A stretch of 23,617 bases of DNA from a virus: the IMG/VR virus record IMGVR_UViG_3300001460_000167, positions 23 to 23,639 of that record; one strand, written 5' to 3'. Within the stretch, counting starts at the first letter, position 1. Each line of letters starts with the position of its first letter. The notes beneath the pieces are model-generated. The model saw only the letters and a list, made by a program, of their open reading frames with translations, was not told the DNA's origin and ran no database searches. A program made the position numbers and the translations under genes. Of the stretch, positions 10,334 to 21,537 are shown in pieces.

Positions 10334-10618
10334 ATGAAACATAATGGTTTTAAAAGAAATAATGACTTTGGTTTTAAAAAAAATAGAAATAAGTTTCAAG
10401 AACAAAAAACTAAGGGTTCTGCAGTTGTTGTTCAAAACAATAACATTGATAAAGCATTAAGAAAACTTAAAAAGAAATTACAAAAAGAAAACTTTTTCAA
10501 TGAATTAAGAAGTAGAGAGTTTTTTGAAACAAGAAGTGAAAAGAAAAGAAAAGAGAAAGCAGCGAGTACAAGAAGATGTATCAGAAAATCAGAAAAAATA
10601 AAAGAGTCAATGGTCTAA
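10334..10618 (+). CDS. Small, very basic protein of 94 aa, unknown
   Basis: The product is rich in Lys, Arg, Asn and Phe, with an N-terminal repeat-like stretch (NGFKRNNDFGFKKNRNKF) and a basic helical C-terminus. It has no hydrophobic segment. The strong positive charge suggests nucleic-acid binding, but this is only a compositional inference. It follows the 10165 gene by one base and overlaps the next gene by 43 bases. Confidence 0.6.
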   Translation: MKHNGFKRNNDFGFKKNRNKFQEQKTKGSAVVVQNNNIDKALRKLKKKLQKENFFNELRSREFFETRSEKKRKEKAASTRRCIRKSEKIKESMV

Positions 10619-14674: not shown

Positions 14675-15421
14675 ATGAAAATACTACTTTTACTTCTTTT
14701 ATTGTTACCTATTTCTCTACCTTCGGAAACTCATTTTTCTTGGGAAGAATGGATTAAAGATACTTTCCTTAATGAAGACTTCATGAAGGGCCTTGATGAA
14801 GATGTAGTTATAAATGATGGTACTGGGTTAATTGATATACAAGCACCATATCGTGCTTTAAATGGTGCAAATGTTCCAATTACAATTTCCACTAAATCAA
14901 GAGATATTTTAAAATATATCTTGATTGTTGATGAAAACCCAACACCATGTTGTGCAATATTTGAGTTTGATAATATGCCTGCATATGTTGAAACAAATAT
15001 TAGAGTTAATGCATATACTTATTTAAGAGTACTTGCAGAAGATAGATTTGGTGATGTATATATGGTAACAAAATTTATTAAAGCTGCTGGGGGTTGTTCG
15101 GCACCAGGTCTGATAGAATCTGGAAACCCAAAAGGTACGATAACTGTAAAAAGTCCTTATTCATACCCAGGTGTCACTAACTATCAATTCTGGCACCCTA
15201 ATTATAGTGGTATGCAATTTGACCAATTAACTAGAACAGAAATTCCAGCAGACTACATAGAGAAGGTAGATATTCAATTTGACAATTCTTCATTTCGTTA
15301 TGAAGGTACGATAGGAATTGCAGAGAATGTATATTTTAATTTAATAACTGAAAAGGGTGTCGGAACAATTACAGCTACAGATAGCGACGAAAATATTTTT
15401 AGTAAACAACTTGAGGATTAA
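14675..15421 (+). CDS. SoxYZ-like carrier of the quinoprotein dehydrogenase-associated type, secreted
   Basis: The 248-residue product has an N-terminal signal peptide (KILLLLLLLLPISLPS, cleavage near residue 17). A SoxY-like domain follows (about 45-145): IDIQAPYRALNGANVPI, then KYILIVDENPTP, IRVNAYTYLRVLAE and the carrier-site block KAAGGCSAPG with Cys141. The C-terminal SoxZ-like domain (about 153-245) has the diagnostic FWHPNYSGMQFDQLTR and the IGIAENVYF block. This fused SoxY-SoxZ layout is that of the carrier family associated with PQQ alcohol dehydrogenases in bacteria, not of the separate SoxY and SoxZ of thiosulfate oxidation. The protein should be periplasmic. Extra cysteines at 92-93 are notable. 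No clear ribosome binding site precedes the ATG. It looks like a host-derived auxiliary metabolic gene. Confidence 0.88.
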   Translation: MKILLLLLLLLPISLPSETHFSWEEWIKDTFLNEDFMKGLDEDVVINDGTGLIDIQAPYRALNGANVPITISTKSRDILKYILIVDENPTPCCAIFEFDNMPAYVETNIRVNAYTYLRVLAEDRFGDVYMVTKFIKAAGGCSAPGLIESGNPKGTITVKSPYSYPGVTNYQFWHPNYSGMQFDQLTRTEIPADYIEKVDIQFDNSSFRYEGTIGIAENVYFNLITEKGVGTITATDSDENIFSKQLED

Positions 15422-17113: not shown

Positions 17114-17229
17114 ACCGCCTAGAAAAAACTATAACTAACCTAAGAAATAGAATAGAAACATTTAAAAAAGAGCATCCAGAATTATACAATGACGAAAATA
17201 GTAAAATTTCCAAAACCAAATACAAATAA
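17086..17229 (+). CDS. Small basic/coiled-coil protein of 47 aa nested between two genes
   Basis: ATG at 17086 follows TTGGAAGA (weak ribosome binding site). The frame runs to TAA at 17227-17229, overlapping the oxygenase gene by 28 bases and the exonuclease gene by 41, both in other frames. The product begins DRSLDRLEKTITNLRNRIET, a plausible short coiled coil with heptad spacing. It fills the only gap between its neighbours, and overlaps of this kind are common in the window. Codon evidence is limited, so this is moderate. Confidence 0.5.
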   Translation: MGNSKDRSLDRLEKTITNLRNRIETFKKEHPELYNDENSKISKTKYK

Positions 17230-17953
17230 CACATTTTTTCATAAAGAAGATGTAAATATTCCACAAATAAAAGCAGTTACAAAAGATAAAATAAGATTAT
17301 ATACAACGCCAGAAGGTAACGAATATCCGTCTATAACGACAGTTTTAGCCGGCCGTAACAAGGCGGGTCTGCAGCAGTGGAGGAATAGAGTTGGTGATGA
17401 AGTTGCTAATTATATTTCTAGAAAAGCTGCAACAAGAGGTACTCAAGTACATCACTTTTGCGAAGATTATATAAACAATAACCACGAAACTATTGAAGAA
17501 AAGAAAAAAGGTAGATTTCTTGCACATTGTATGTTCTCACAGCTTAAACCATTTTTAGATGAAAACATTGGTTTAGTTCATTTACAAGAAACTTCATTAT
17601 GGTCTGATTATTATAAACTTGCTGGTAGAGTTGATTGTATTGCAGAATACAAAGGTACACTATCTATAATTGATTTTAAAACAAGTACAAGAGAAAGAGA
17701 AGATTCTTGGAATGAGAACTATTACATTCAAGGTTCAGCATATGCAGAAATGTATCAAGAGAGAACACAAGAACAGATTAATCAAATAGTTATTTTAGTA
17801 GTCACAGAAGATGGTACAGTACAAGAATTTATAAAAGATAAACATATATACTTACATCTACTTGACAAAGAGTTAGAATTGTATTATAATAAACATATTA
17901 TTAATCAACAAAATTCAAATGGGTTTCCTGGGTTAATACCTGGTAATTGGTAA
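17189..17953 (+). CDS. RecB-like PD-(D/E)XK exonuclease
   Basis: The 254-residue protein has the RecB/MGME1-like nuclease core: a His/Glu helix (RGTQVHHFCED, 83-93), E134 (LQETSLWS), D149 (LAGRVDCIAE), D162-x-K164 (IDFKTSTR) and then a YYIQGSAYAEMYQE helix with the Gln and Tyr of the family (about 177-190). Such exonucleases process DNA ends in recombination or degrade host DNA. The order of motifs and the size match enzymes of marine T4-like phages. It is the last gene before the tmRNA/pqqA locus. Confidence 0.88.
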   Translation: MTKIVKFPKPNTNNTFFHKEDVNIPQIKAVTKDKIRLYTTPEGNEYPSITTVLAGRNKAGLQQWRNRVGDEVANYISRKAATRGTQVHHFCEDYINNNHETIEEKKKGRFLAHCMFSQLKPFLDENIGLVHLQETSLWSDYYKLAGRVDCIAEYKGTLSIIDFKTSTREREDSWNENYYIQGSAYAEMYQERTQEQINQIVILVVTEDGTVQEFIKDKHIYLHLLDKELELYYNKHIINQQNSNGFPGLIPGNW

Positions 17954-18009
17954 TTGATGAATGAGTTGTTCATGTAGCTTAAAGAATATTGAGTTATAGA
18001 TATAAAGAG

Positions 18010-18252
18010 AATTTTTTGTTGATGATAATTTGAAGATAGACAGGACGAGGGTGCGATTCCCTCTACCTCCACCAACCCGAATGAGGGGGTAATGTAGGGT
18101 AGACTGGTATTGAATAATTATTGGAGAAGAATGGGGTGACTACCTAATCGGTCAAACAAGTAAATGCAAACGATAATTTTGCATCTCAAGATTATGCACT
18201 AGCTGCTTAATCTTATGGGTTCGGCAGTACCTGGAAACAGAAACTGTCATTA
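18010..18252 (+). ncRNA. ssrA: Circularly permuted two-piece tmRNA (alphaproteobacterial type)
   Basis: Rescues stalled ribosomes and tags the nascent peptide. Gene order is reversed, as in two-piece tmRNAs. The acceptor piece comes first, ending in GGAC, a T-arm GAGGG-TGCGATT-CCCTC (18047-18063), acceptor strand TACCTCC (18064-18070), A, and an encoded CCA (18072-18074). A 10-base intervening segment (18075-18084) follows, then the coding piece from GGGGGTA (18085-18091). The acceptor strands pair over 7 bp with a G3-U70 wobble, the alanine identity signal. AATTATT (18116-18122) pairs with GATAATT (18024-18030) as helix P2. A PK1-like TGAC/GTCA pairing (18137-18140 with 18151-18154) precedes the tag ORF at 18166, and an H-type pseudoknot (18217-18220 with 18229-18232; 18223-18228 with 18243-18248) follows it. 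The outer ends are approximate; the coding piece may reach about 18290. A TATAAAGA late-like box lies at 18001-18008. Confidence 0.93.
18166..18210 (+). other. tmRNA proteolysis tag reading frame (ANDNFASQDYALAA, stop)
   Basis: The resume codon GCA at 18166 opens fourteen codons ending at TAA (18208-18210), giving the tag ANDNFASQDYALAA. The ANDNFA start is the alphaproteobacterial form (Caulobacter tag AANDNFAEEFAVAA), and the terminal ALAA is the signal recognised by ClpXP-type proteases. The flanks ATGCAAA (18164-18170) and TTTGCAT (18178-18184) form a 7-bp hairpin over the first codons. Confidence 0.93.
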
Positions 18253-18257
18253 ACTAT

Positions 18258-18287
18258 GTGGTCTGCGGTCGCAACGACAACCAGCAC
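18258..18287 (+). other. Stem-loop between tmRNA and pqqA
   Basis: GTCG-caa-CGAC (18268-18278) is enclosed by TGGT (18259-18262) and ACCA (18280-18283), with an outer GTG/CAC, giving an interrupted stem. It lies between the second tmRNA pseudoknot and the pqqA ribosome binding site (GGAG, 18297-18300). It may be the 3' end or last domain of the tmRNA coding piece, a processing signal, or a leader element for pqqA. Confidence 0.5.
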
Positions 18288-18307
18288 TACTTTTATGGAG
18301 AAGTAAC

Positions 18308-18385
18308 ATGGCTTGGAATAAACCTGTTATCACAGAAATCTCAGTTGGCTTAGAAATCAACTCTTATGCTTGCGCTGAGAAGTAG
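18308..18385 (+). CDS. pqqA: PqqA-like coenzyme PQQ precursor peptide
   Basis: A 25-residue minigene with GGAG seven bases before the ATG. The peptide has the hallmarks of PqqA: an N-terminal aromatic/basic segment (MAWNKP), the VGLE block and the strictly spaced E16-x3-Y20 (GLEINSY), the two residues that PqqE crosslinks and from which PQQ is built. The length (22-29 aa in known PqqA) fits. No pqqB, C, D or E is in the window, so the phage would rely on host enzymes. The peptide lies directly downstream of the tmRNA and upstream of a strong terminator, suggesting one transcript. PQQ is the cofactor of methanol and other alcohol dehydrogenases, which links it to the SoxYZ-like carrier at 14675. 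Confidence 0.88.
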   Translation: MAWNKPVITEISVGLEINSYACAEK

Positions 18386-18393
18386 TTAAAAAT

Positions 18394-18418
18394 GGGAGAC
18401 TTAGGTCTCCCTTTTTTT
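18394..18418 (+). terminator. Rho-independent terminator after pqqA
   Basis: GGGAGAC (18394-18400), loop TTAG, GTCTCCC (18405-18411), then seven T residues (18412-18418). It is the strongest terminator in the window and ends the tmRNA-pqqA unit nine bases after the pqqA stop. Confidence 0.95.
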
Positions 18419-18446: not shown

Positions 18447-18656
18447 ATGACACCAAAAACATTTTCTATTTTCATAGAATCAGAAGTACGAAAAAAAAGA
18501 ATTTCACATATGGATGCAATATTAGAATATTGCTATCAAAAAGGAGTTGAACCAGACTCTATTACAAATCTAATACAAAAACCACTTAAAGACAAAATAG
18601 AGGCAGATGCCAGAGATTTAAATTTTTTACCTAAAATGGGTAAATTACCTGTATGA
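18447..18656 (+). CDS. Late transcription coactivator, T4 gp33-like
   Basis: A 69-residue protein matching gp33 of T4-like phages in size and pattern: a helical N-terminus, SHMDAILEYCYQKGVEPDSI (about 20-39), and the conserved end KPLKDKIEADARDLNFLPK (about 45-63). Gp33 binds the RNA polymerase beta flap and links the sliding clamp to the late sigma gp55, allowing activation of TATAAATA promoters, three of which are in this window. It follows the pqqA terminator, overlaps gp59 by four bases and has only a weak ribosome binding site. Confidence 0.88.
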   Translation: MTPKTFSIFIESEVRKKRISHMDAILEYCYQKGVEPDSITNLIQKPLKDKIEADARDLNFLPKMGKLPV

Positions 18657-19255
18657 CGGAACTCAGAGGAGTAACTAGAACATTGGACCCTTTCAAAGCA
18701 TACATGATTTATATGGGATTAAAAGCACATTTTAATTCTAACTATGATTATGTCAAGTATGGTGGTAAAACTTCGGCAACAAGAAAAAGTTATTTAAATC
18801 GTAAAGACAAAGCTTTCTTTGGAAAGGCATCTAGAAAGTTTAAAGAAGAGGTTGAAGATTTTTTTATTTCTAACTTTGTAGAGAATGAAAAAGGGTATGT
18901 TGGTCAGTTCAATGAAGAAACTTATGTACAATGGAAAAAAAGAGTTCAAAGTTTAAGATATCAATTCAAGAATGATATTATATTGTTGTTAGAACAAAGC
19001 AAGAAGTTTAATAAAATGTTTGAATGCAAAGATGGTCAACACCCTATTCTATTTAAAAATTATTTAGCAAAAAAGATTAGTATTGAAACAATGATTATAT
19101 TAGATAAAATTGTTGATTATGCTAAAGATTTTGATACAAAAATTCATGAAACTGTCATATGGCCAAGTCATGCTAAAAAAATAAATAATTATAAAAAGCT
19201 ATTGACTTTTGATGAATCTGAGTATAAAATAGTATTATTCAATTTAGTAAAATAG
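18653..19255 (+). CDS. Helicase loader, T4 gp59-like
   Basis: Loads the replicative helicase onto gp32-coated forks. The 200-residue, basic, all-helical protein aligns by eye with T4 gp59 (217 aa): an N-terminal PFKAYMIYMGLKAHFNSNYD (the KLYLMIKQHMNGKYD region of T4), YLNRKDKAFFGKASRKF (about 48-64), FFISNFVENEKGYVGQF (about 71-87) and the C-terminal SIETMIILDKIVDY. It begins in an ATGA overlap with the gp33 gene, a pairing that also occurs in T4. Confidence 0.9.
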   Translation: MTELRGVTRTLDPFKAYMIYMGLKAHFNSNYDYVKYGGKTSATRKSYLNRKDKAFFGKASRKFKEEVEDFFISNFVENEKGYVGQFNEETYVQWKKRVQSLRYQFKNDIILLLEQSKKFNKMFECKDGQHPILFKNYLAKKISIETMIILDKIVDYAKDFDTKIHETVIWPSHAKKINNYKKLLTFDESEYKIVLFNLVK

Positions 19256-20643: not shown

Positions 20644-21537
20644 ATGTCATTAGATACTTTAAAAAAGTCTAATTCATTAGACAAAATATTAGCTGCAGTT
20701 AAAACTGAAACTGCTCCAGCTGAAAAAAAATCATATGTAGATGAAAGACTATGGAAACCTGAACTAGATAAATCTGGTAATGGTTATGCAGTAATAAGAT
20801 TTCTACCATCACCTGAAGGCGAAGATTCTATGCCTTGGGCGAAGTTATGGAATCATGCATTTCAAGGTCCTACTGGTAAGTGGTTTATTGAAAACTCATT
20901 AACTACTTTAAATCAAAAAGACCCTGTGTCCGAATACAATAGTTCATTGTGGAATTCTGGTGTTGAAAGCGATAAAGAAATTGCTAGAAGACAAAAAAGA
21001 AAACTACAATATTATTCTAACATATATGTTGTATCTGACCCACAGCATCCAGAACACGAAGGCAAAGTATTCTTATTCAGATATGGTAAGAAAATCTTTG
21101 ATAAGTTAATGGAAGCTTTACAACCTCAGTTTGAAGATGAAACTCCTGTAAATCCTTTTGATTTTTGGGAAGGTGCACACTTTAAATTGAAAATTAGAAA
21201 GGTTGATGGTTATTGGAACTACGATAAGTCGGAATTTGAAAGTCCTTCAAAGTTAAATGAAGATGATGCGATTTTAGATAAAATCTATAAATCAGAATAC
21301 TCTTTATCAGAGTTTACTGCACCATCTAATTTTAAAACTTATGATGAACTCAAGTCCAGGCTTGATGATGTTTTAACCGGCACTCAATCATCTAAAAGCT
21401 CTGCAGAAGATGTAGAACTTGAAACAGCTGTAACTGATGTTGAAGACAAACAATATGTTGACAATGTTGTTGCAACAGCAAAGACTGAAAGTGATGACAG
21501 TTTAGATTACTTTCAAAAACTAGCAAAAGAGGCTTAA
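20644..21537 (+). CDS. Single-stranded DNA-binding protein, T4 gp32-like
   Basis: Coats ssDNA in replication and recombination and interacts with gp59. The 297-residue protein (T4 gp32 is 301) has an N-terminal LKKSNSLDK region like the cooperative-binding motif, the OB-fold core NGYAVIRFLPSPEGE (about 46-60), WNHAFQGPTGKWFIENSLTT, HPEHEGKVFLFRYGKKIFDK (about 138-157) and PFDFWEGAHFKLKIRKV (about 174-190), and an acidic C-terminal tail. The T4 zinc ligands (His-Cys3) are not conserved: the equivalent stretch LNQKDPVSEYN has no Cys. It has its own promoter region and a strong terminator. Confidence 0.93.
   Translation: MSLDTLKKSNSLDKILAAVKTETAPAEKKSYVDERLWKPELDKSGNGYAVIRFLPSPEGEDSMPWAKLWNHAFQGPTGKWFIENSLTTLNQKDPVSEYNSSLWNSGVESDKEIARRQKRKLQYYSNIYVVSDPQHPEHEGKVFLFRYGKKIFDKLMEALQPQFEDETPVNPFDFWEGAHFKLKIRKVDGYWNYDKSEFESPSKLNEDDAILDKIYKSEYSLSEFTAPSNFKTYDELKSRLDDVLTGTQSSKSSAEDVELETAVTDVEDKQYVDNVVATAKTESDDSLDYFQKLAKEA

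Follow-up and report, generated by a model that had tools for sequence, protein, structure and literature searches.

The window analysed here is a stretch of viral DNA of 23,617 nucleotides, bases 23-23639 of the linear, 26,285-base IMG/VR virus record IMGVR_UViG_3300001460_000167. At 18308..18385 on its plus strand lies a gene of 25 codons, pqqA, for the precursor peptide of pyrroloquinoline quinone (PQQ), with the product MAWNKPVITEISVGLEINSYACAEK ahead of the stop codon. The peptide scores 36.9 bits with NCBIfam TIGR02107 (E 2e-9, cut-off 20) and 27.5 bits with Pfam PF08042 (PqqA; E 3e-6, cut-off 21.1). It falls within a length of 22-29 residues and carries the Glu-x3-Tyr motif as E16 and Y20 with the spacing of PqqA; these correspond to the residues that PqqE cross-links in known PqqA. 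A ribosome binding site, GGAGAAG (18297..18303, plus strand), places its GGAG (18297-18300) 7 nt ahead of the ATG. The gene is followed by a terminator-like stem-loop, GGGAGACTTAGGTCTCCC and then seven T (18394..18418, plus strand), whose stem at 18394-18411 has 7 pairs, 5 of them GC; shuffles of the region average 0.4 such sites. A first-pass annotation made from the letters of this DNA had described a PqqA gene with the Glu-x3-Tyr motif, a ribosome binding site and a terminator, and each of these parts, as well as the identity of the peptide, stands. A PqqA-shaped DNA pattern matches the window once, and none of 100 shuffles.

Conservation of the gene was examined in relatives fetched through the neighbouring gp59 gene, and not through pqqA, which makes them an unbiased set. 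E16 and Y20 are present in all ten loci that extend across the site, and the set preserves the whole peptide with a single V7I change; the gp59 of one member is only 77% identical. The first-pass annotation had tied its case to the persistence of the open reading frame (ORF), E16 and Y20 in close relatives and to the same minigene in related phages; these ten loci retain all of them, and a wider survey also found the minigene. Over 121 distinct viral pqqA genes of the alpha type, the ratio of nonsynonymous to synonymous differences (pN/pS) is 0.16 (0.11 with the leader described below; range 0.11-0.20), and the differences fall mostly at third codon positions. The ORF is under purifying selection. 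The search pattern itself fixes G14, E16, I17, N18, Y20, A21 and C22, and the script demanded W3; the conservation values of P6, I8 and E10 are free of this bias. A false ORF is ruled out by the PqqA models together with selection. Judged by the two models, its conservation and its pN/pS, the ORF at 18308-18385 is a real PqqA gene.

The leader RNA ahead of viral pqqA

Upstream of pqqA, at 18258..18287 on the plus strand, lies a structured leader RNA of 30 nt, GUG GU CUG C G GUC..GAC AA C CAG CAC, which folds as a hairpin of 10 pairs with the bulges GN, C and AA. Across 37 distinct leader sequences 100% of the cells are paired and 7 of the 10 pairs have changed on both sides, a result matched by 0 of 500 shuffles, and slid versions of the structure collapse. 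Because a pairing filter in the first collection of variants could inflate covariation, the analysis was repeated with pairing-blind anchors: 35 of the 37 leaders are fully paired, and the remaining two form the pairs with a bulge shortened by one base. The bulge letters G4, C9, A22 and A23 are invariant within the covarying stems. A covariance model reaches 44 bits on the window leader, itself among the sequences used to build the model. The leader matches none of 4227 Rfam models even at E values up to 10, and its neighbourhood is overlapped by chance-level small-RNA hits only.

The hairpin stands ahead of many viral pqqA genes of the alpha type. The strict leader pattern occurs in 98 of the 2.9 million viral contigs scanned, and only before viral pqqA. 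Of 108 strict copies in the loci collected, 106 lie within ~32 nt ahead of pqqA and the remaining two are truncated within the start of that gene; the loci overlap in part, and L142 among them is a contig assigned to a bacterial bin. Among viruses, it is borne by T4-like phages and by contigs whose portal and head genes are podovirus-like. Of 65 distinct cases that have no tmRNA (transfer-messenger RNA) gene, 45 show a TATAAT-like hexamer (at least 5/6) that ends 4-8 nt ahead of the hairpin (shuffled mean, 8); from this spacing, the pqqA message probably begins with the hairpin at its 5' end. Such a -10 box precedes the leader in most relatives; in the window, the 3' end of a tmRNA gene precedes it.

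Outside viruses, the strict pattern was found in one of 385 alphaproteobacterial genomes, G047 (AG-896-A16), where it stands upstream of rpoH on a 191-kb contig. The spacer and ribosome binding site of this copy (L473:1501-1532; G047:C2:10947-10978) resemble the phage ones, and its position before a bacterial rpoH suggests a general function in the 5' untranslated region. The leader model also gives weak hits in bacterial genomes rich in GC (L478-L481); these fall within coding-like sequence and are attributed to chance. It is possible, and we propose it only tentatively, that the leader represents a novel type of regulatory RNA, shared by at least two unrelated groups of marine phage. It would sense some component of the PQQ system, either a metabolite or a protein, or else a host factor that also serves in rpoH control, and so set the amount of PqqA. 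As a riboswitch that binds PQQ or a related metabolite, the leader would tie phage PqqA output to host PQQ status, in keeping with a role of the peptide in PQQ supply. The invariant letters inside covarying stems and the strict link to pqqA in viruses would fit such a switch; however, neither sequestration of the ribosome binding site nor an alternative terminator is evident, none of the host pqqA genes examined carries the leader, and the one bacterial copy stands before rpoH. We regard the riboswitch as unlikely.

Two further upstream elements were observed in other viruses. A longer hairpin-like leader (GGGGGGTAGCA ... TATCTCCGGAGG ... CCCCC), with no Rfam match, precedes pqqA in the loci L262, L279, L288, L314, L352 and L354. 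A conserved DNA element like TAATGATTWTCATTA lies ~60-100 nt upstream of gamma-type viral pqqA (e.g. L089, L059 and L020); it is found in 35 of 100 methylophage leaders versus 0.6 in shuffles and is probably either a promoter or a site for a regulator.

Viral pqqA without the pathway enzymes

Viral pqqA genes occur on more than 200 IMG/VR contigs. The PqqA pattern matched at least 120 viral contigs, all of which translate to a PqqA-like peptide, and the alpha-type pattern matched at least 119, ~100 of them new and all PqqA-looking except L345; these counts are lower bounds. Two types of viral peptide occur, gamma (MWTKPxATEMRFGFEVTMYVMNK) and alpha (..ITEISVGLEINSYACAEK), and representatives exceed the TIGR02107 cut-off. 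The gamma peptide is encoded in nine records of cultured Methylophilales phages, namely Venkman, P19250A, MEP301, MEP401, MEP402 and four Melnitz strains. In the first five of these phages the gene is unannotated, and the Melnitz site is annotated solely with an antisense ORF, which bears out the earlier remark that the gene is easily missed; a length of 23-26 codons would account for the omission. A tblastn search with the window PqqA gave no match in the cultured phages, and a close relative of the alpha type is thus absent from that collection. Altogether, pqqA recurs in unrelated phages, comprising several kinds of cultured methylotroph phage and both T4-like and podovirus-like contigs.

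The remaining genes of the pathway do not accompany it. Both pqqE and pqqC are absent from all 50 pqqA-bearing virus records searched (the entire 26-kb record and 49 others, six complete phage genomes among them); the only matches there are two weak ones to radical-SAM proteins, at 22-28 bits versus a cut-off of 381. For pqqB and pqqD, tblastn found no match in the viral loci compared, versus more than 50 bacterial loci matched. Zero matches to PqqB, C, D, E and PQQ dehydrogenase, and 12 to a SoxYZ carrier, were obtained in those viral loci. The window ORFs tested by Pfam include no pqqB, C, D or E, and the window holds no pqqABCDE operon. The claim that the phage encodes the peptide without pqqBCDE therefore holds across the records and loci searched. 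As a positive control, 18 bacterial genomes that encode PqqA of the alpha type were searched; pqqE exceeded the cut-off in 12, and the pqqC model detected pqqC in one of them. In several of these genomes pqqA lies ~2.1 kb ahead of pqqE, and many carry extra pqqA outside the operon. Bacterial contamination as the general source of the viral contigs was rejected on account of the complete phage genomes, the absence of pqqE and pqqC, and the phage neighbours. A pqqA gene unaccompanied by those for the pathway enzymes is widespread among viruses and has been overlooked.

Several unusual cases were seen in the survey. At L335:3398, a PqqA-like start (MEEWNTPEVTEEAVGLEINSYACA) runs into a long Asp/Ser-rich tail, and this product also exceeds TIGR02107. 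A partial PqqA-like match of 18 residues (E 0.01) lies in 'Acinetobacter phage MD-2021a' (CAKLQF020000010.1:108210-108263). In three bacterial bins without pqqE above cut-off, pqqA stands on small contigs (L142, Maricaulis IN14; L194, Flavobacteriaceae SAT25; L181, Verrucomicrobia TMED40); L142 and L194 bear the phage leader and are apparently phage contigs placed in the wrong bin.

Of 20 candidate host-type genomes, 14 encode a PQQ alcohol dehydrogenase. The likely host type is a marine alphaproteobacterium that has both pqqABCDE and such a dehydrogenase.

A second gene linked to PQQ is predicted in the window at 14675..15421 (plus strand). It encodes a fused SoxYZ of the quinoprotein dehydrogenase-associated, SoxYZ-like carrier family (TIGR04557, 141.9 bits). 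A true thiosulfate SoxY/SoxZ was rejected for this gene (TIGR04488, 52.9 bits versus a cut-off of 125). Homologues of the carrier accompany pqqA in other phage loci (L303, L294, L011 and L341), with TIGR04557 scores of 159.1 bits in L303 and 129.7, under the cut-off of 140, for a fragment in L011. In the candidate host genome G047, pqqA-B-C-D-E is followed in turn by a MoxJ-like protein, cytochrome c, PQQ alcohol dehydrogenase and the SoxYZ carrier, and the phage SoxYZ is 36% identical to the carrier that adjoins the dehydrogenase there. Two members of a single host locus thus have homologues in the phage. In another phage, a membrane protein of the fatty-acid-desaturase family (PF00487), alkane-hydroxylase-like, lies directly ahead of the leader and pqqA (L324:3003-4067); an alcohol-producing enzyme adjoining PqqA would make metabolic sense.

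The remainder of the window identifies its source. Downstream of pqqA on the plus strand lie a gp33-like late-transcription coactivator (18447..18656; PF16805, 60.7 bits) and the T4 gp59 helicase loader (18653..19255; PF08993/PF08994 and a match to Pelagibacter phage HTVC008M), followed by gp32 (20644-21537; Pfam). Further Pfam matches comprise PhoH, T4 RNase H, a B12-type ribonucleotide reductase and peptidase M15. From gp33, gp59, gp32 and the other Pfam matches, the source is identified as a T4-like marine phage. The sole DNA similarity of the pqqA region to cultured phages is 66% to HTVC008M, at gp59, and the window phage is a distant relative of HTVC008M; no near matches to the window were found. 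The phage also encodes a ribosomal protein S21 (window 10334-10618; TIGR00030, 59.6 bits).

Upstream, a PD-(D/E)XK nuclease gene (17189..17953, plus strand; PF12705) precedes a permuted two-piece tmRNA gene of the alphaproteobacterial type (17968..18251, plus strand), which lies immediately upstream of the pqqA leader. The tmRNA scores 101.8 bits with Rfam RF04321 (cut-off 47) at 18012-18210 and 85.6 bits with RF01849 at 17968-18251. The acceptor part precedes the mRNA-like part, as in a permuted gene, with the tag frame ANDNFASQDYALAA at 18166-18210. ARAGORN overlooked this gene, and Rfam detected it. An attempt to assign the host through tmRNA similarity was unsuccessful and returned phage relatives only. 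Absent from the first-pass annotation were this tmRNA, the leader structure and the SoxYZ carrier linked to PQQ.

Since tmRNA genes are frequent insertion sites, pqqA could be passenger DNA acquired near one, without function in infection; in the clade of the window, the gene does stand directly downstream of the tmRNA. However, it is under purifying selection, it recurs in unrelated phages at differing genomic sites, it has a dedicated leader with promoter-like spacing, and the synteny is conserved across large divergence: the order tmRNA-pqqA-gp33-gp59 is kept even where gp59 identity between phages falls to 45-60%. Selection and recurrence largely refute the passenger explanation, which we consider very improbable.

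Proposed role during infection

The carriage of pqqA behind its leader and near a second PQQ-linked gene suggests that the phage keeps the alcohol-oxidising machinery of the host running during infection. We consider it likely that the two genes form an auxiliary module, in which the phage would provide the consumed peptide substrate of PQQ synthesis together with a carrier for PQQ-dependent alcohol oxidation. During infection, the host PqqB, C, D and E enzymes would persist and outlast host transcription. PqqA would be spent at one molecule per PQQ and no longer be replenished from host mRNA. With the enzymes persisting but the peptide consumed, the phage would supply only the consumed substrate. 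Phage PqqA would be taken up by host PqqD/PqqE, and PQQ loading of a host XoxF-type alcohol dehydrogenase would continue, hence also the yield of energy from methanol or other alcohols. The leader hairpin probably protects the short pqqA mRNA or controls its translation.

That extra phage PqqA would raise PQQ output is consistent with two reports. Methylophilaceae carry 3-12 pqqA copies and, bar one exception, one pqqBCDE set (PMC4109929), and added PqqA is turned into PQQ by a cell-free Gluconobacter extract, as cited in PMC9851590. Conversely, the peptide may be a decoy or regulator that dampens or diverts PQQ synthesis, either by binding PqqD/PqqE or in the manner of a leader peptide, and both the carriage of the peptide without the enzymes and the structured element close upstream of pqqA would suit it. 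However, the cross-linked Glu and Tyr are retained as in functional PqqA (the search pattern imposes them in most loci, though not in those fetched through gp59), a second gene of the PQQ system is present, and hosts themselves multiply pqqA copies, as seen in our own genome scan and in PMC4109929. We judge a decoy or regulator improbable.

Several points weigh against the proposed module. First, the record is a linear 26-kb fragment that may miss pqq genes elsewhere, and the complete genomes checked belong to other phages. Second, the SoxYZ score is barely above its cut-off (141.9 versus 140), and the part of the carrier itself in alcohol oxidation is putative. None of the bacterial genomes compared has a tmRNA close to that of the window; the DNA comparison matched phage tmRNAs only. 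Lastly, the effect on PQQ is inferred.

In cyanophages, psbA likewise provides a fast-turnover component of a host energy system and not the whole machine; the difference is that psbA encodes a protein subunit, whereas here a consumed peptide substrate of cofactor synthesis is provided. Viral PqqA is already known: in the Lake Baikal methylophage population VP_266, it was reported together with methanol dehydrogenase and proposed to aid PQQ-dependent methanol oxidation in infected methylotrophs (PMC7678222). VP_266 is of freshwater origin and carries the dehydrogenase, whereas no dehydrogenase is seen in the marine, T4-like window phage, which has pqqA after a tmRNA, a leader RNA and the SoxYZ carrier. 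The OM43 phage Melnitz also encodes PqqA (76140-76205, beneath the antisense ORF), which was found here and is unmentioned in the text of its paper, where PQQ is named solely as a medium component; unlike the window gene, the Melnitz gene is of the gamma type and has no leader motif, and a glutamine riboswitch is reported at the Melnitz tmRNA (PMC9004378). PQQ is also unmentioned in the papers on MEP301 and MEP401/402. Virus contigs from reservoir sediment have annotated pqq genes including pqqA, but pqqD and pqqE are listed too, and the setting is phosphate solubilisation (PMC13188868). The leader RNA and the pairing of PqqA with SoxYZ appear to be new; in a literature search made mostly without subscription papers and without preprints, we found no report of either, or of PqqA in cultured methylophages.

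If this account is correct, many marine phages of methanol- or alcohol-oxidising bacteria, including the nine cultured methylophage records, carry an unannotated gene, and cofactor supply would be a bottleneck that phages relieve. Since the leader covaries, is undescribed and has a near-exclusive gene association, its role is directly testable, and cultured phage–host pairs exist for the PqqA question in Venkman, P19250A, MEP301, MEP401/402 and Melnitz. The system would provide a testable case of substrate-only auxiliary metabolism, in which the phage brings the consumed peptide and the host keeps the enzymes.
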